A stretch of DNA of 64,000 bases from Photobacterium sp. DA100. Lineage in GTDB: Bacteria; Pseudomonadota; Gammaproteobacteria; Enterobacterales; Vibrionaceae. The notes beneath the pieces were generated by a model. That model did no database searches, had not been told where the DNA came from, and was given only the letters and a program-made list of their open reading frames with translations. Below are positions 22,179 through 30,287 of this stretch, piece by piece; position 1 is the stretch's first letter; each line of letters begins with the position of its first letter. The position numbers were made by a program, and so were the translations under genes. The stretch is from contig NZ_CP119424.1 in assembly GCF_029223585.1 (NCBI RefSeq), positions 930,001 through 994,000 of the forward strand, written 5' to 3'.

Positions 22179-22535
22179 TTAGCCAACTAACGCAGGATCA
22201 CTCAATTCCTCATTACCTACACATGCATTGGACAAGCCCTTTTTCTTTGGGACGGTTAACTCGTGATTAATCTGTTCAATCGCGTCGATAAGTGCATCAT
22301 GAACCATGGCAGATTGCCCAGCCTCTAGTGCATGCAATGCGCGAAATAATGTTTTCTGTAGCTCGGTGACTTGCTCATTGGCATGATCCAACTCAATTGA
22401 TTCGAGTGAAATGAGGTCATTAATGTGCTTTGCTGAACCCGCTTGAGAAACTGAAAGTTGGCTAGAGATGATTTGGGAGGTGCATAACTTTAAGTAAGAG
22501 AGGGTTTGGGTTAGCGACTGCGAGGGTTTGTCCAT
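22179..22535 (-). CDS. Hypothetical helical protein
   Basis: A 118-aa predicted cytoplasmic protein that looks wholly alpha-helical (ELQKTLFRALHALEAGQ, MVHDALIDAIEQINHEL). It has no signal peptide, membrane segment or metal motif, and I do not recognise a family. An AAGGAG-like sequence precedes the ATG (caaggagttttcgg read on the minus strand). It stands alone, with a terminator downstream, which supports it being a real gene. Confidence 0.5.
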   Translation of the reverse strand: MDKPSQSLTQTLSYLKLCTSQIISSQLSVSQAGSAKHINDLISLESIELDHANEQVTELQKTLFRALHALEAGQSAMVHDALIDAIEQINHELTVPKKKGLSNACVGNEELSDPALVG

Positions 22536-22914: not shown

Positions 22915-23235
22915 TTAGAATGACGCCAGGTATTTGGCAATCTGGCGGATATCTTCATCGCTATAGTGTTCCATTGCTACTTCCATTGGGACAAATAACC
23001 CGTTTTTCCGCTTCTTGAGCTTGTAGTCTTGCATCTGGTTAATCAGATACATTTCCATCTGCCCGCCAATCTTCGGGTACATCGGCATGACCGGCTCGTT
23101 ACCGGTCTCCCCATGGCAAGTTGCACAGCCGCCCTTACCTGGTGAGAGGTATAATTGCCTACCGGATTCTGTTTCCACAGAAGCGAATGCCGAAACTGAA
23201 AGGCAAGTTATGGCTGCCACCACTACTTTCTTCAT
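22915..23235 (-). CDS. Small class I cytochrome c
   Basis: A 106-aa periplasmic monoheme cytochrome. After a signal peptide (about 1-19) it has the heme motif CATCHG and a distal Met in the MEVAMEHYSDEDIRQIAKYL segment. I trimmed eight codons: the start at 23235 follows AAGGAG, and its ATGA overlaps the TlpA-like stop. It is the last gene of the eight-gene operon starting at 29142. It resembles the central cytochrome domain of the 25439-27094 protein, so it may be its electron donor or acceptor. Confidence 0.88.
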   Translation of the reverse strand: MKKVVVAAITCLSVSAFASVETESGRQLYLSPGKGGCATCHGETGNEPVMPMYPKIGGQMEMYLINQMQDYKLKKRKNGLFVPMEVAMEHYSDEDIRQIAKYLASF

Positions 23236-23705
23236 TGTGTATTCTCCTTGCTTAAGCATTGCAGCCAGTGTCTGATGAACTCGGCTTCTTGGTTGATATA
23301 GCCGGAGTAGCGATACACTATTCGGTTGTCAATCACCACAAAACTGGCGGGTAACCCTTGAAAGCCAAGTTGTTGCAGCAAAGCCAAATCGGGTTCTATT
23401 GTCTTCGGTAGATGTTTGATCTGTAACTGCTTAAATTTGACGTCGACACTATCCGGAACATCACCTAGGTGGATGGTATCGATAGCATAGATATTACTAT
23501 TGGCAATACTGTCCAGCATCGGCAGCTCTTTTAGGCAAGGCGGGCACCATACGGCCCACAAATTGACCAGTGTGACAGGCTTAGTATTGCTTTCCCATCT
23601 TTGCGAGCCATCCGTTGCGATAAAGCCGTCTGGAGCTGGGCACTGGCTGGCGTTGGCTATCGCGGTTAGCACTAGCGAGCCGAACAAAAAGGCAATTTTA
23701 TTCAT
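23232..23705 (-). CDS. TlpA-like periplasmic thioredoxin
   Basis: A 157-aa secreted thioredoxin-fold protein: signal peptide (1-19), active site AVWCPPCLKELP (Cys54, Cys57), and cis-Pro region GLPASFVV. TlpA-type proteins reduce cysteines of Cu-binding or heme-accepting proteins. It overlaps the upstream SCO1 gene by 8 bp and the downstream cytochrome gene by 4 bp. This is tight coupling, fitting a role in metal-site maturation of the same system. Confidence 0.88.
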   Translation of the reverse strand: MNKIAFLFGSLVLTAIANASQCPAPDGFIATDGSQRWESNTKPVTLVNLWAVWCPPCLKELPMLDSIANSNIYAIDTIHLGDVPDSVDVKFKQLQIKHLPKTIEPDLALLQQLGFQGLPASFVVIDNRIVYRYSGYINQEAEFIRHWLQCLSKENTQ

Positions 23706-24267
23706 CGAGGTGCCTTTTTAAGCTCTGGCCAATCTTGACGCCGCCCACGCCGTATCCGTATACATCGATCAGCTCGCGATCTGGGCCATAGAAATAGATG
23801 TACGCGGAGTGGAACACTTCGTAGTGGTTCGGCAAAGGGGGATAAATCGGTTTCCCCTCCAGTGAATAGCCAAAAGTGGCTTTTAGGCTTCTGGCCGCAG
23901 CTCGTGTTTGCTCGAAACTACCGACCAAGCCGACCATTTTGGGATCGAAGTATTTGACATACAGATCCATGTTTTCGACGGTATCACGTTTGGGATCCAC
24001 GGAGATGAAAATAGGCACGACCGCGTTTTTTTTGTCACCCAATGTATGGACGGCTGTTGCCAAGTCAATCACGGTGGTGGGGCAAATATCTGGGCAACTG
24101 GTGTAACCGACGCCTATCAGCAGGTACTTATCGGGCCAGTTTTTTTCAGTAACGGTGCCAAGGTCATGCTCTTGTAGTTCGAACGTGAGTGGCTTTGCCA
24201 CAGCAACCGGGGGCAGCATGCCTAGTGTTAATAGGGTAAGAACAAAATAGGAAACGAGTAAACGCAT
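23698..24267 (-). CDS. SCO1/SenC-family copper chaperone
   Basis: A 189-aa protein with an N-terminal signal or anchor, the copper-binding motif YTSCPDICPTT (Cys58, Cys62) and the distal His in EVFHSAYIYFYG, the third Cu ligand in SCO proteins. SCO proteins load copper into Cu centres such as CuA of cytochrome oxidase. No oxidase gene is nearby, so here it probably serves a copper site in a protein of this operon. Confidence 0.9.
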   Translation of the reverse strand: MRLLVSYFVLTLLTLGMLPPVAVAKPLTFELQEHDLGTVTEKNWPDKYLLIGVGYTSCPDICPTTVIDLATAVHTLGDKKNAVVPIFISVDPKRDTVENMDLYVKYFDPKMVGLVGSFEQTRAAARSLKATFGYSLEGKPIYPPLPNHYEVFHSAYIYFYGPDRELIDVYGYGVGGVKIGQSLKRHLDE

Positions 24268-24276
24268 ACCTGCTCC

Positions 24277-25377
24277 TTAGTGACAAATGGTGTTGGTGAT
24301 CCCCATAACAATATGCTGGGGCTGTTTAAGACCGGTGTTAATAGCCGGCAGCAGTTTGTTTTGGCGTATATCGTAGATAAACAAATCACTGCTGTTTTGT
24401 TGGGTCGCAAACAGGGTTTTGGAATCAGAAACGACCACGACCTCGTTGAGGGGATGTTTAAGGGCAAGTGAGGTCGCTTTGTTTGCTTTGGTTAGCTCAA
24501 AGATGTTTAGCGATTTTTCGCTTTCGACAATCCCAATGGTTTCTAACCAGCCGGTGCGAATCGATTTGGGCGCCTGCTTGAATTGGAAATTATTCACTGT
24601 TTCTCCAGACCAAGTGTTGACGATCTGGGCTAGGCCATTGTCATCGACAAATATCATGTGTTCGGAATCAGAGCTGACGTAAGGGCGCCAGGGCTTGGCT
24701 GTCATCGGGTACGATTTATAGGGAGCCTCGTTAAAGAGATCCCATACGAAAACGGAGTTGGTTGAATGGTCCGAGACCAGGGCCAGCCGCGCATCAGGTG
24801 AAAGAGTCAGTGCCGATACGTTGCCTTCTCCCAGCTGAATGTGGGTCTGTTGGCCGTCGTGGTTTCTGTAAATCAGTGTGTTACCTGTTTTGGCTTCGGT
24901 GATGTACAGGTTATAGCCACCATTGTCAAAGTTCATGCTAAATGGTGACTTGATGCCTTCAATTGAGGCAACATATTCCTGTTTCAATGGCTTGATGATG
25001 TCAATGCGATCTTGGCTTGCAACAGCCAATTGCGCACCATCCGAATGGAAAACGATCGAGTGGGGCACCCGTTCTAAAGCCATTTCACTGTGGGTGTGCG
25101 TTATCAAATCATAGCTAAAGACTTTATTACTGACGCCATCGATATAAACCAGTACATCTTGCACGTCAGAAACTACAAGTTCGGTGGGTACCGCTTTGAG
25201 TTCAAGTCTGTCCGCCAACTGATATTTGAATGTATCAACGACGGCAATGTGTTTTGAATCGGCTTCAGAGATGAATGCCCAACGGGCACCGTCGTCATAG
25301 CGAGGCAGTTCTGCATTGCTACAAACAGCGAATACGGCTAGAAAACACAATGTAAGCTTGCGCATTAATAAGGTCAT
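24277..25377 (-). CDS. Periplasmic beta-propeller protein (YVTN/YncE-like)
   Basis: A 366-aa exported protein with signal peptide (LTLCFLAVFAVCSNA) and repeated WD/YVTN-like blades (ALTLSPDARLALVSDHSTNSVFVWDL, broken here by blade position), probably seven. The first 26 codons of the longer frame are dropped because AGGAG lies 7 bases before the ATG at 25377. The chain ends in TICH, a Cys-His pair that could bind metal. It may be a docking or catalytic subunit. Related propellers occur near nitrite and nitrous oxide reduction genes, but I cannot assign one of those functions. Confidence 0.7.
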   Translation of the reverse strand: MTLLMRKLTLCFLAVFAVCSNAELPRYDDGARWAFISEADSKHIAVVDTFKYQLADRLELKAVPTELVVSDVQDVLVYIDGVSNKVFSYDLITHTHSEMALERVPHSIVFHSDGAQLAVASQDRIDIIKPLKQEYVASIEGIKSPFSMNFDNGGYNLYITEAKTGNTLIYRNHDGQQTHIQLGEGNVSALTLSPDARLALVSDHSTNSVFVWDLFNEAPYKSYPMTAKPWRPYVSSDSEHMIFVDDNGLAQIVNTWSGETVNNFQFKQAPKSIRTGWLETIGIVESEKSLNIFELTKANKATSLALKHPLNEVVVVSDSKTLFATQQNSSDLFIYDIRQNKLLPAINTGLKQPQHIVMGITNTICH

Positions 25378-25438
25378 GGTAGAGCTCCTGAACCTAAGGT
25401 TGGCAAAAAAGCCACCCAAGCTGGGTGGCCTGAGTCGG

Positions 25439-27094
25439 TTAAGGGGTGCGAACACAACGGCTGTAGAATTCCGTGTCTTTTTGCATCCCCAGGCCCGAAC
25501 CGATCATATAGCCTTGCGCCCATGCTTCGTTGTCGGTGGTATTGCGCAGATCAAGCTGCTCGGGAGATTGATCTTTCTTGCGTAACCCCAGTGGACGAAC
25601 GTGCAGGGTCGGGCCGGCAACATCGGAGGTGCTGGTCCAGAAAAAATATTTCACCGGGGTATCCGGGAAAAACTCTTCGTCGATTGACGGTGATGTTTTG
25701 TTGTAGTTGACGATAGAAACAGCTTCTTTGATATTTGGCAGGCGCCAGTCGTCATAGCCTGCCAGCTCGAGGTTGTTGCAGTACTGCAGTGAGTCTTCCC
25801 AGTTTCTGCGGGTATAGTCTATTTTCTGTTGCCACATACGGTTAGTGACTTGTTCTGTAACCGTACCATCACCGTTGTCTACGTAACTCATGTTGTGATA
25901 TGCCGCACCGTTGTCGGCGCGAACGCAGCGTACCAGCTTGGTAGACGCCGTGTGCTGGCCCATAATATGGGCGTCGGGGAAACCAATGTGCCAAGCGTGA
26001 TCGGGATGATCACTGACAGGGAAGGTCCAGATCCCCGAGTTCTGTCGTGGCATATTCAAGAATGCATCCATATCAATAGCAGGGCGGAAGTTACCCATAT
26101 CAGCGATACTTTGTAGCTCTTTCATCAGCGGGAAGCGCCAGTCGGTATAGCCGTCGAGTTCCAGGTTGTCACAATACTGCTGGCCTTCAACCGCTGTCAT
26201 CCAAATGCGCGAGGCATCACGCTCCCACATGAGCTTGGTGTTGTTATCTAGGGTCACCTTGCCAGATTTACTGATCGTATAACTGAGCGGGTTTTGAGGG
26301 TTATCAGAGTCCTCGTTCGGAATATCGGTGAACTGCTGGATTTGACCGGTATCTGGTAGCTTAAACCCTTCTGGGGCAGGCATGCCGATGCCGGTGATGA
26401 ACTCACGGCGCTCGATCAGTTTTACTTCCTGGCCGGTGACATAGGCAATGATGTCTTTGTAGTCATCCTCTGAGTACATTTTGGCAAATGGCACCATCAT
26501 TGGTGCATTGCGGTTGATTCGCTTGCCATCGCGGTAAGAATTCATCTGTTCAAACAGATAAGTCGGCATCTGGCCTTTGAGTGGTGGATAGGCTGCTTGA
26601 GTGCTTGCCCCCTGGTCGCCATGACACATCTTACAAGATTGGTCGTATTTTTCTTTGCCGCGCTGGAAGGCCTCGCTCTCAAGTACATGCTCCATTGGGT
26701 TATACTTCATGGTGCGAGTGCTTAACACGATTGCGGTATTGGCCATATCTCTCGGGCTGTTCGCGTACACGATTTCTTTCATTTGTGAGGCAATTCCCGA
26801 GTGGCGCTCGTTATCCATGTCCACCCATTGATCGAAGAAGTACTGTGGATCAAACCCCTCGATTTTTGGGCTCAGGGTCTCCGGCACTTCTTCTTTTGCA
26901 GGACGGTGGCAACCGAGGTAGCAACCGAAAATAATCCGGTTAGCGATTTGTTTTTCTTCGGCTGTTAAATCGGCAATAGTTCGATTGATGGTATAGTCCT
27001 CGTAGCCATTGTCGATATCTTCTGCGGCCAGTAGTGCTGGCGAGCTCAGCAAGGCAGAGGCGATACTGAGAGAAAGCAGAGTCAAAGATTTCAT
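25439..27094 (-). CDS. Cytochrome c fused to two DUF1566 (Lcl C-terminal) domains
   Basis: A 551-aa periplasmic protein with signal peptide (1-24). The N-terminal domain carries an unusual heme-type motif CYLGCH (Cys58, Cys62, His63), i.e. CX3CH. A class I cytochrome domain with canonical CKMCH (154-158) follows. Two DUF1566 domains come next (about 280-400 and 405-551; WMTAVEGQQYCDNLELDGY and NWEDSLQYCNNLELAGY are matching repeat starts). DUF1566 is a formylglycine-enzyme-like or lectin-like fold. This is the largest and most distinctive protein of the operon and the best candidate for its catalytic or substrate-binding subunit. Confidence 0.8.
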   Translation of the reverse strand: MKSLTLLSLSIASALLSSPALLAAEDIDNGYEDYTINRTIADLTAEEKQIANRIIFGCYLGCHRPAKEEVPETLSPKIEGFDPQYFFDQWVDMDNERHSGIASQMKEIVYANSPRDMANTAIVLSTRTMKYNPMEHVLESEAFQRGKEKYDQSCKMCHGDQGASTQAAYPPLKGQMPTYLFEQMNSYRDGKRINRNAPMMVPFAKMYSEDDYKDIIAYVTGQEVKLIERREFITGIGMPAPEGFKLPDTGQIQQFTDIPNEDSDNPQNPLSYTISKSGKVTLDNNTKLMWERDASRIWMTAVEGQQYCDNLELDGYTDWRFPLMKELQSIADMGNFRPAIDMDAFLNMPRQNSGIWTFPVSDHPDHAWHIGFPDAHIMGQHTASTKLVRCVRADNGAAYHNMSYVDNGDGTVTEQVTNRMWQQKIDYTRRNWEDSLQYCNNLELAGYDDWRLPNIKEAVSIVNYNKTSPSIDEEFFPDTPVKYFFWTSTSDVAGPTLHVRPLGLRKKDQSPEQLDLRNTTDNEAWAQGYMIGSGLGMQKDTEFYSRCVRTP

Positions 27095-27706
27095 TTATAG
27101 GCCTCCTACTGCCGCTAGTTCGCGGATTTTTTCTTCTTCACGTAGACGCATGTTGCGTTTCAAATTCGGGTGGGCGATGTCGTAGTGACAGCTAGAGCAT
27201 TGGTAATCTGTGTCAGTGTCACGGTTGGCAAAAGCCATCTGGTGTACCTGATCGGAAACTGCAGATTGTTCATCGGCTATAGAGGCCCGATGTTCTAAAG
27301 TGCGGTGACAGTTTTCACAACCGGAATCGAAAACAAATTCTGTACGCTTTTCATGGTTAGCCTGGTAATCAAGGGCATCCATTCCCTTTACATATTCACC
27401 CCACAGATGGCGCATGCCCGATGTCCCTTTGACGTAGAGCTGTTCAACAACATTGGACTTGGGTAAGTGGCAATCAACACACTCTGCGACAAAACCCTGG
27501 GAGTTATTACCGCCATGAATACTTTGCTCGAAGGTTTCTACCATAGGTTGCATGGTATGGCATGAGCCACAAAATTCGTTGGTACTGAATGCATGTAGCA
27601 CTTCAGTCGCTGGGAGGGCGAATAGCAAGCCTAGGCCTGTACCGGCCAAGGCAATGACGGCAATAACCGAGCGCTTCACTTGTTTGATTTGCTGAATTAT
27701 TTTCAT
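27095..27706 (-). CDS. NapC/NirT-family tetraheme quinol dehydrogenase
   Basis: A 203-aa protein with one N-terminal membrane anchor (about 13-33) and four CXXCH heme sites (CGSCH 46-50, CVDCH 76-80, CENCH 130-134, CSSCH 170-174). This is the NapC/NirT/NrfH plan. Such proteins oxidise menaquinol or ubiquinol and hand electrons to a periplasmic reductase. It lies directly before the cytochrome-DUF1566 gene (no gap), suggesting that protein is its partner. No nap, nrf or tor catalytic gene is present. Confidence 0.9.
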   Translation of the reverse strand: MKIIQQIKQVKRSVIAVIALAGTGLGLLFALPATEVLHAFSTNEFCGSCHTMQPMVETFEQSIHGGNNSQGFVAECVDCHLPKSNVVEQLYVKGTSGMRHLWGEYVKGMDALDYQANHEKRTEFVFDSGCENCHRTLEHRASIADEQSAVSDQVHQMAFANRDTDTDYQCSSCHYDIAHPNLKRNMRLREEEKIRELAAVGGL

Positions 27707-27717
27707 TGCGCCCTCAA

Positions 27718-28170
27718 TTAAAGTTGGTTTGCTTTAACAACGCTGGCTTCGCACTGGGCGTCAGCGAGATAGGTTAGCCATATGTTGACAGGGTAGCTTT
27801 CGCCAGCAACGGGACGCTTTTTCAGATCCATCAACATAAAGTGCAAGCCACCTCTTTTGAGCACGGTTTTCCCATCCTTCTCCAGGAACAGTTTCGGGAT
27901 ACGTTGCATTTTCATAACGCCATCCTTCATTTCTGTTTTATGGATCTGCACATTGTCAGTTAATGCCGATATGTCCCCGCCGAGAATAGCCTCTGGAGAG
28001 GGCAAGCGAAGCGCTTTCACTTCTTCATTAACGGAATAGTCAGCGGTGAAAAAAAGGGCGGTGCGATTAACATTGGGTGCTGGCTCTACGATAACGCAGT
28101 CGCGGATGGTGACATCAGCTTGAGCGCATAGCGTTGTGAGCAGTCCTAGGCTAGCAATGAGTTTTTTCAT
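27718..28170 (-). CDS. Periplasmic copper chaperone, PCu(A)C family
   Basis: A 150-aa exported protein with signal peptide (1-18) and the Cu(I) site of the PCu(A)C family: His in QIHKTEMKDGVMKMQ and the His/Met pair in GGLHFMLMDL. Together with SCO1 and the TlpA-like thioredoxin in the same operon it forms a complete copper-delivery set, implying that one operon product holds copper. Confidence 0.88.
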   Translation of the reverse strand: MKKLIASLGLLTTLCAQADVTIRDCVIVEPAPNVNRTALFFTADYSVNEEVKALRLPSPEAILGGDISALTDNVQIHKTEMKDGVMKMQRIPKLFLEKDGKTVLKRGGLHFMLMDLKKRPVAGESYPVNIWLTYLADAQCEASVVKANQL

Positions 28171-28179
28171 AAAAGCTCC

Positions 28180-29142
28180 TTAAAAGTGAAAGTTCAGGCC
28201 GATGTTGATGCGATCGTTTTTGCTGTCTTCTGCGTACTCCGCTAGCTCAACAAAGGTGGTGAAATGTTTGTCGAACGCATAGCTGGCGTTCGCTAGGTAG
28301 AGGGTTTCGTTATTTTGGCTAGCATCGTCATAATCCTTGAATTGGGCTCCCAGCTTGAAGGTCACGTTATTGAGCTGATACTTTGTGGATAAGCCATAGA
28401 CATTGCTGTCACCCGCAGGGTCGTCTTGGTTTAATTCAACCAAGCCAGCGAGATAGAAGTCTTTGAGTTGGAATGAGGAGACAAATGCGTAGCGGACATA
28501 GTCCTCGGTCGCATTGGCTGGAAGCTGCTTGTGGTGGGTGGATGCTCTATTTAAAGTCGCATTAAAGTTGCCCTTGTTATAAATCAGGCGTAAGCCGTAG
28601 ACATCGACATTGTTGCCATTGCTGTCATTCGGGCTGATGATGGCTCCCTTAAATTGCAGCCCGTTCCAAATCGGTGTCCCGTAAGCAATTTGGTTGGTAC
28701 CGTACACACCCTGGCGATAGAGAGTTGAACCGCTCCAACGTTTCATATTGTTATTGTCAAAGATATCGACTTTTGAATACAAGTCCTTGTAGGTACCGAC
28801 AGTGCCATTGCCGAAATACAGAGAGCCAAGAGAGTGGTTAAGCAAAATGAGGTTGGCTTCGCTCAGACGGATGTCAAAATCTCGGTCTTGTTCTGTTTTT
28901 GCCGTTAGATCCCGGCCGTATTCCGCCTCAATGTTGTAGCGAACCCGGACTAAATCTGTTCGGTGGTGCCCAAGCAGGCCGAGTTGAACGCTCTGAATTT
29001 CAGATTGATAGTCTTTATTGTCCTCCCATTTTATTTGGCCCAGAACATAGCCGTAGACCGACGGTGGTACAAACTCGCTGGCTAAAGCCGGCGTCGACAG
29101 CACGGCCATTGCACAGTAGAGCACTTTAGTTTTTACATCCAT
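28180..29142 (-). CDS. Outer-membrane porin-like protein
   Basis: A 320-aa beta-barrel protein with signal peptide (MDVKTKVLYCAMAVLSTPALA) and C-terminal Phe (GLNFHF), the classic outer-membrane sorting signal. It is built of alternating strands like the Gram-negative general porin family. I start at 29142 (MDVKTK) because the longer frame adds 23 residues before the signal peptide. It is the first gene of the operon, so it may admit the substrate of the electron-transfer system. Confidence 0.8.
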   Translation of the reverse strand: MDVKTKVLYCAMAVLSTPALASEFVPPSVYGYVLGQIKWEDNKDYQSEIQSVQLGLLGHHRTDLVRVRYNIEAEYGRDLTAKTEQDRDFDIRLSEANLILLNHSLGSLYFGNGTVGTYKDLYSKVDIFDNNNMKRWSGSTLYRQGVYGTNQIAYGTPIWNGLQFKGAIISPNDSNGNNVDVYGLRLIYNKGNFNATLNRASTHHKQLPANATEDYVRYAFVSSFQLKDFYLAGLVELNQDDPAGDSNVYGLSTKYQLNNVTFKLGAQFKDYDDASQNNETLYLANASYAFDKHFTTFVELAEYAEDSKNDRINIGLNFHF

Positions 29143-29231: not shown

Positions 29232-29252
29232 GCTATTCATAAAATGAATAGC
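29232..29252. promoter_or_regulatory. Palindromic LysR-type operator between the divergent LysR gene and the porin operon
   Basis: Perfect 9-bp arms GCTATTCAT and ATGAATAGC flank AAA. This contains a T-N11-A LysR-type motif. It sits midway in the 230-bp divergent region, 90 bp before the porin start and 120 bp before the LysR start, as expected for a LysR activator and autorepressor site. Confidence 0.7.
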
Positions 29253-29372: not shown

Positions 29373-30287
29373 ATGGATATTGAAGCGGTTAAAATGTTTG
29401 CCTTGCTGGCAAAAAAACTCAATTACACGGAAACTGCTAAGGCGCTGGATGTGAGCCAGCCGACATTAAGCCGAAAGATTAAAGCGCTGGAACAAGACTT
29501 AAATGTCACATTGGTACACCGGCGGGGCAACAATATTAGCTTAACTCCGCAAGGGGAGGCATTTCTTGAGTCGGCAACAAAGATCCTCGATCTGATAGAC
29601 CATACTGTCGAGCAACTGCATGTTGAAAGAAAGGGAATTAGTGGCCAGCTTCGAATTGGTTGCCTTCATCCTATGGCGCGCTTTCTGACCAAGTTTTTCC
29701 TACCGAGTTTTCATGAAAAGCACCCAAATATCCATATACACTTCCATACCTTGACACCCTGCACATTGACCTTGTTTGAGGACGTGGATTTGATGATTGC
29801 CCCGTTTTGGCTAAGCGATGAAAGTGTAGTTTGCCGAAAAGTGTCAACCTTTGTGCGCTGCTGTTACGCTTCACCGGCGTACTTGAAAAAGCAGGGGGTG
29901 CCGCAATTTGTCCATGATCTCGAGTTACACCAGTGTATTACCCAAACCAATACGCCGAACGTAGAACGTTATTGGAATTTGCAAAACCGTGACGGTAATA
30001 AAAGGCAAGTCGAAGTCTCTGGCGACATGACGACCAACTCGATTGATATCGCGATAAATCTAGCTCTGGGAGGTTTCGGGATTGGGTTGATACCGGCCAA
30101 CCAGGTTCGAGAATATGTTGAGAGTGGTGAACTGGTTCGTTTGTTTGATGGTAACTGGTTCGAACAAGGAGAGTTGTTCATACTCTACAAGCAGAGTCTG
30201 CATACACCAAAACGCTATAAAGTGTTCATCGAAGAGTTCGAGGCTTTTCACTACCAGTGGGGCTCTGGCTTGCACAATCTCGAATAA
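29373..30287 (+). CDS. LysR-family regulator divergent from the copper/heme operon
   Basis: A 304-aa LysR protein with N-terminal winged helix-turn-helix (NYTETAKALDVSQPTLSRK) and effector domain. The effector domain has an unusual run of Cys residues (GCLHPMAR, TPCTL, VVCRK, VRCCY, HQCIT) for a cytoplasmic LysR protein, which could sense metal or redox state; this is inference. GAGG lies 6 bases before the ATG. Its position and the shared palindrome make it the likely regulator of the 29142-22915 operon. Confidence 0.88.
   Translation: MDIEAVKMFALLAKKLNYTETAKALDVSQPTLSRKIKALEQDLNVTLVHRRGNNISLTPQGEAFLESATKILDLIDHTVEQLHVERKGISGQLRIGCLHPMARFLTKFFLPSFHEKHPNIHIHFHTLTPCTLTLFEDVDLMIAPFWLSDESVVCRKVSTFVRCCYASPAYLKKQGVPQFVHDLELHQCITQTNTPNVERYWNLQNRDGNKRQVEVSGDMTTNSIDIAINLALGGFGIGLIPANQVREYVESGELVRLFDGNWFEQGELFILYKQSLHTPKRYKVFIEEFEAFHYQWGSGLHNLE

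Follow-up and report, generated by a model that had tools for sequence, protein, structure and literature searches.

A conserved heme–copper-type operon of Photobacterium sp. DA100 and a candidate metal site in its double-Lcl cytochrome

What reaction is served by an operon that combines a quinol dehydrogenase, cytochromes and copper maturation proteins, with no familiar terminal reductase beside them? The question is raised by eight genes in a 64,000-nucleotide stretch of the Photobacterium sp. DA100 genome (contig NZ_CP119424.1, positions 930,001 to 994,000; hereafter the window), the source genome being 6.0 Mb in two contigs. All eight open reading frames (ORFs) are read from the minus strand, between 29142 and 22915, separated by gaps of 0–61 bases or short overlaps. 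Their coordinates and Pfam matches bear out the parts list of the original prediction, which was made from the letters of this DNA: a porin, a PCu(A)C copper chaperone, a NapC-type protein, a cytochrome of 551 amino acids (aa) fused to two DUF1566 domains, a beta-propeller, SCO1, a TlpA-like thioredoxin and a monoheme cytochrome (Table 1). A known terminal reductase had been said to be absent, and indeed no such Pfam match was found among the operon genes, nor any to NosZ, NirK or molybdopterin enzymes among their products. The operon is real, conserved, of heme–copper type and, as far as the literature searches go, undescribed; it may encode a dedicated quinol-linked periplasmic terminal reductase.

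After removal of duplicates by contig, 19 loci with the fused 551-aa gene were available besides the window. Gene order, for which a conservation check had been proposed, is well kept: 12 of the 19 carry the full set of eight in the window's order, together with a divergently transcribed LysR-type regulator gene (L031, L032, L033, L034, L035, L041, L080, L084, L085, L087, L088 and L090). The porin of L088 reads as two frames, and L080 is 98–100% identical to the window and is not independent of it. Only the porin is missing from L043 and L091; L036 holds the gene set in two blocks, with the break exactly after the 551-aa gene; L037 and L038 keep PCu(A)C–NapC–551–propeller, L037 also SCO1; and L040 has broken frames. 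The Ferrimonas locus, L039, is missing NapC and TlpA, and its genome encodes three other NapC-family proteins. In a clustering of the window with 12 of these and related loci (taking in L042, a split form described below, and leaving out L040), only the operon families and LysR were common to more than three loci. The divergent LysR gene belongs to the module.

The gene set thus recurs and is not confined to one genome, and it occurs patchily, in the manner of an accessory trait. The fused gene was found in 16 of 296 Vibrionaceae genomes (one in pieces), with the split form in one more. Full-length copies were present in 4/60 relatives' genomes, in 3/295 genomes of an order sample, and in 1/152 genomes of the family around Ferrimonas, where a second match covered a partial Lcl only. 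Viral contigs gave no match to either form. Among the best 120 of 4287 matches listed for the 551-aa protein, no relative of known substrate was seen, so the described reductase that could have explained it did not appear.

A single contig of Rhodobacteraceae bacterium Alg231_30 bears two diverged copies of the core, L037 and L038. By name it is the sole fused-locus record from outside Gammaproteobacteria; in the class around it, a query with the split form matched 1 of 385 genomes, namely Alg231_30's own two fused genes. A 434-aa protein of Vibrio alfacsensis (P0263) has PCuAC, Lcl and propeller domain matches in one chain, perhaps through a deletion joining operon parts.

The 551-aa protein and its candidate metal site

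The model of residues 42–222 consists of two fused class I cytochrome domains in the cytochrome c4 arrangement. That a cytochrome is fused to two DUF1566 domains had been recognized; the second cytochrome domain, which lies in front, carries a CX3CH motif and is missed by Pfam, had gone unnoticed. The modelled protein is therefore best described as diheme-like, a predicted cytochrome c4 followed by two C-type-lectin-like Lcl/DUF1566 domains, for which both the PF07603 match and the Lcl fold are present. It differs from cytochrome c4, which has two canonical CXXCH motifs, in that the first motif is CX3CH (36 of 40 cytochrome–Lcl relatives) and in the fusion itself.

An alignment of 52 chosen relatives was used to look for conserved residues. 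W368, H369, G371, H376 and M378 are invariant in all 52, and H363 is kept in 50. C308 and C390 are likewise invariant in the relatives but are usual in ordinary Lcl domains (26/42 and 31/42, respectively). The His-His-Met set (H369, H376 and M378) behaves differently: complete in 20/20 first domains of the family, it is wholly missing from 20/20 second domains, and the ordinary Lcl domains (42, from 28 proteins) have at most one of the three residues (33 with none, 9 with one). In a tree of the domains from 20 chosen relatives and these 42 ordinary domains, the first domains of the fused and split forms make up one clade (support 0.999) and the second domains a separate one (0.925), which suggests that the set arose once. 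DSSP assigned strands to residues 366–371 and 376–381 of the model, and by strand parity H369, H376 and M378 would share one face.

Across 210 proteins checked, 163 carry the motif, including all 40 cytochrome–Lcl proteins and all 120 listed relatives of the split protein; the 47 without it comprise the propeller and 46 Lcl proteins, namely 44 of 623–957 aa, P0108 and P0122. Motif-blind scoring failed to separate the family cleanly from other Lcl proteins because long multi-Lcl proteins sum their domain scores, and the per-domain comparison was relied on for this reason.

Copper is the natural guess for the metal, since both PCu(A)C and SCO1 keep their ligands in 10 of 10 aligned sequences. 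We take C58, C62 and H153 of SCO and H77, M88, H110 and M112 of PCu(A)C to be the copper ligands. The TlpA-like protein scores 43.5 bits with the NCBIfam dsbE model, under its cut-off. The suggestion that these maturation proteins imply a copper site is strengthened by the conserved chaperone ligands and the family-specific set, and the hairpin of the first Lcl domain is the best candidate for that site.

Probable quinol input and the two-protein form

The window NapC passes the PF03264 cut-off clearly (102.3 bits versus 24.1), and its four CXXCH motifs are kept in 10/10 aligned members. Its best NCBIfam model is NrfH at 74.7 bits, under the cut-off of 134.2, and it falls under every listed NCBIfam equivalog cut-off (Nap, Nrf and Tor models); its match in the PDB was to NrfH, 2j7a (8.5e-5). 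It thus resembles the NapC/NirT/NrfH proteins in family and hemes, but the operon differs from their usual settings in having no Nap, Nrf or Tor catalytic gene. Judged by its family, the protein would oxidise quinol, and the proposed route from quinol through NapC to a periplasmic cytochrome is consistent with the Cytochrom_NNT match, the four hemes and the recurring gene set.

Elsewhere in the same genome (L107:5888–8511; contig C2 near 603 kb), three consecutive genes encode a FAD_binding_2 protein, a tetraheme-like cytochrome of c3 type and an NrfH-like NapC, probably as a flavin-based periplasmic reductase operon. This NapC is the nearest paralogue of the window NapC and of an equally low-scoring kind.

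A split form of the core was found in Photobacterium frigidiphilum (L042), where one strand encodes a 218-aa NapC, a 263-aa diheme cytochrome, a double-Lcl protein of 382 aa that also bears the His-His-Met motif, SCO1 and an 84-aa cytochrome. No relatives of the porin, PCu(A)C, propeller or TlpA were found within this locus. Its NapC scores best as NapC/NirT (276.9 bits versus a cut-off of 310.6) and is only 24% identical to the window NapC; one core with two such distant quinol dehydrogenases favours a real quinol input. The motif is present in every one of the 120 relatives listed for the 382-aa protein (the best 120 of 224). Motiliproteus and Roseibium metagenome-assembled genomes are among them, and the many short contigs suggest metagenomes as the source. 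In one protein, P0048 (619 aa), a canonical diheme cytochrome is joined to an Lcl part that shares 72% identity with the split protein.

Genome surveys gave no further split locus, which leaves P. frigidiphilum as the only cultured one read. The split query at 1e-30 against 369 genomes of the class returned the window's own fused gene only; at 1e-25 in a phylum sample it matched 7 of 398, of which three were fused genes and four weaker Lcl matches. Plasmids gave no match to the split protein.

Proposed function and its alternatives

From the gene content, the recurrent order, the modelled folds and the residue conservation, we infer quinol oxidation, copper binding, a direction of electron flow and a reduction. 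In the reading that we prefer, with a probability of about 0.5, the operon encodes a dedicated quinol-linked periplasmic terminal reductase. The membrane-anchored NapC/NrfH-like tetraheme protein would oxidise quinol, and electrons would then reach the diheme c4-like part of the 551-aa protein, perhaps with the monoheme cytochrome as an intermediate carrier. Their last station would be a mononuclear copper site of the first Lcl domain (H369, H376 and M378, with H363 nearby), where a small periplasmic acceptor, imported via the porin, would be reduced. PCu(A)C, SCO1 and TlpA would deliver the copper and maintain thiols in reduced form, the propeller would act as a dedicated partner or assembly factor, and LysR would induce the operon. 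The direct fusion of the c4-like module to the motif-bearing Lcl domain counts in favour of this scheme.

Several observations weigh against the reductase. L042 (on the same contig as L094) is the one cultured split locus read, and its short cytochrome reaches only 19.0 bits in Pfam against a cut-off of 27. The split-form NapC might have been inherited and then diverged, rather than separately recruited. The genome encodes two COX2-family oxidase subunits and a separate SCO elsewhere, so the presence of SCO alone is no proof of a local client. A full FNR or CRP site, as a sign of anaerobic regulation, was found in none of 10 intergenic regions.

Formylglycine-generating enzyme (FGE) has a C-type-lectin-like fold, and it was not among the 50 structural matches listed for the 551-aa model, which excludes nothing. 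It bears on a different use of the same parts, in which quinol electrons would let copper activate O2, and a compound taken up through the porin would be oxidised or hydroxylated by what is then a periplasmic monooxygenase or oxidase. Mononuclear copper O2 chemistry has a precedent in FGE, described with a bis-thiolate Cu(I) site (PMC12123546), as against the His/Met candidate here. Such a site, with the LysR–porin pair, would suit a small organic substrate, and the missing FNR site agrees with an O2-using enzyme. We still hold it unlikely, given that both the supply through a NapC-family protein and the reductase-like surroundings of the nearest NapC paralogue point to respiration, and that no accessory catabolic genes are common to the clustered loci.

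The COX2-family subunits raise another explanation, that the copper proteins serve some other client (e.g. cytochrome oxidase) and that the 551-aa protein, with a metal-free Lcl, serves only in electron transfer or binding. The genome has its separate SCO gene, however, the chaperone genes of the operon accompany the 551-aa gene from locus to locus and the His-His-Met set is invariant, and we give this explanation a rather small chance. That the propeller is the catalytic subunit, with the 551-aa protein as its electron donor, seems to us improbable. Periplasmic handling of copper or oxidative stress, in place of respiration, would account for copper proteins and hemes in one operon and for a fused gene present in so few Vibrionaceae genomes; it fits poorly with the porin and the dedicated quinol dehydrogenase, no copper efflux or multicopper oxidase family (families by similarity) is common to the clustered loci, and we consider it very improbable.

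MccA is an eight-heme cytochrome. The operon had been said to recall, without matching, the copper–heme sulfite reductase (Mcc) loci, a judgement with which the heme motifs and the gene set agree. The likeness lies in the idea of a quinol-linked periplasmic reductase that uses hemes and copper and has an unusual heme motif; membership of the Mcc/SirA family was rejected, as the 551-aa protein has one CXXCH and one CX3CH and the gene set is different. The MccA/SirA family is described as having many hemes with a CX12NKGCH/CX15CH motif, and the sir operon, sirAIGCDJKLM, as having its own heme lyase parts (PMC6976685), none of which is among the genes common to the loci here. Legionella Lcl, whose C-terminal domain is of the DUF1566 kind, is described as a glycosaminoglycan-binding adhesin part (PMC11162425); ordinary Lcl domains are without the His-His-Met set of the 551-aa first domain. 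Our literature searches, incomplete for subscription papers, returned, among the entries listed, no description of DUF1566/Lcl with a cytochrome, of DUF1566 with copper or in Vibrio, or of NapC with PCuAC and SCO1.

A broader proposal, which we put forward as tentative, is that a fold known from an adhesin now provides a mononuclear copper active site (His2Met or His3Met) in a new class of quinol-linked periplasmic oxidoreductase, with the c4 fusion in Vibrionaceae and Ferrimonas and a two-protein version mainly in environmental sequences; the class may carry out a respiratory reaction not recognised so far. If true, the Lcl/DUF1566 family, which has no known generic role, would acquire a copper-based catalytic branch, and marine bacteria would be credited with a respiratory enzyme for which nobody has sought the substrate. 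The environmental split form hints that this reaction may be of importance outside Vibrionaceae as well. The operon stands by itself, with a linked regulator and specified key residues, which makes the metal-site prediction testable.

Regulation, propeller and neighbouring genes

Table 1. Features of the operon and its surroundings, in window coordinates
Feature	Position	Strand	Evidence
LysR-type regulator, divergent	29373..30287	+	Pfam LysR_substrate, HTH_1; divergent LysR in most related loci
Inverted repeat GCTATTCAT..ATGAATAGC between LysR and porin, possible operator	29232..29252	.	Read by eye
Porin	28180..29142	-	Porin_4 5.6e-21 (Pfam)
PCu(A)C copper chaperone	27718..28170	-	PCuAC 2.6e-16 (Pfam); H77, M86, M88, H110, M112 kept in 10/10
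NapC/NirT-family tetraheme quinol dehydrogenase, NrfH-like	27095..27706	-	Cytochrom_NNT 3.1e-29 (Pfam), four CXXCH
551-aa diheme cytochrome c4-like/double Lcl protein, proposed enzyme	25439..27094	-	Lcl_C 1.8e-47 in two stretches, Cytochrom_C 6.3e-11
Cytochrome c4-like module, residues 42-222	26429..26971	-	
CX3CH heme motif, residues 58-63 (C58-C62-H63)	26906..26923	-	In 36/40 cytochrome-Lcl relatives
Canonical CKMCH heme motif, residues 154-158	26621..26635	-	
First Lcl domain, residues 239-394	25913..26380	-	
Candidate metal hairpin, residues 363-378 (H363, H369, H376, M378)	25961..26008	-	Conservation, domain comparison, strands
Second Lcl domain, residues 405-551, without motif	25442..25882	-	
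Terminator-like hairpin between genes 4 and 5	25414..25435	-	Minimum free energy -16.6 kcal/mol, z -2.21
Beta-propeller protein, 366 aa	24277..25377	-	Weak Pfam matches only, all under cut-off
SCO1 copper chaperone	23698..24267	-	SCO1-SenC 3.8e-32 (Pfam); C58, C62, H153 in 10/10
TlpA/DsbE-like thioredoxin, CPPC	23232..23705	-	Thioredoxin-like Pfam match at cut-off; C54, C57 in 8/8
Monoheme cytochrome c	22915..23232	-	Cytochrom_C 1.7e-8 (Pfam)

For the propeller, a search listed 53 of 53 matches, and 41 propellers were aligned. The start is most likely at 25377, as the relatives are mostly 361–394 aa, and the mature chain was modelled as propeller strands throughout. A multi-histidine copper site was rejected for this protein, there being no invariant His in the 41 sequences. 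It differs from the propellers of cd1 nitrite reductase, NirF and NirN in having no attached cytochrome domain, with WD40 propellers nearly tied as matches; no CXXCH occurs in its sequence. At its C-terminal end, an invariant C365 is followed by a near-invariant H366, in a low-confidence region of the model.

Ten neighbouring window genes appear, by Pfam, unrelated to the operon. A 118-aa ORF lies 3' of it (22179–22535, minus strand), with no Pfam match at 1e-5; among the 19 loci a relative was seen only in the near-identical genome (L080).

Control by FNR or CRP was rejected on the intergenic regions described above, where the best FNR match was 9/10 (L035), with 8/10 in the window. The inverted repeat between LysR and the porin, a possible LysR operator, is near-perfect in the window and L034 and half or imperfect in L031, L032, L035 and L041 (all by eye). 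Terminator-like sites in the region were no commoner than in shuffles (6 found, 7.2 expected). At the junction of the 551-aa and propeller genes, strong hairpins of different sequences were present in 11 of 16 loci read (no shuffle control); together with the break in L036 at the same point, they suggest that the two halves of the operon may differ in expression level.

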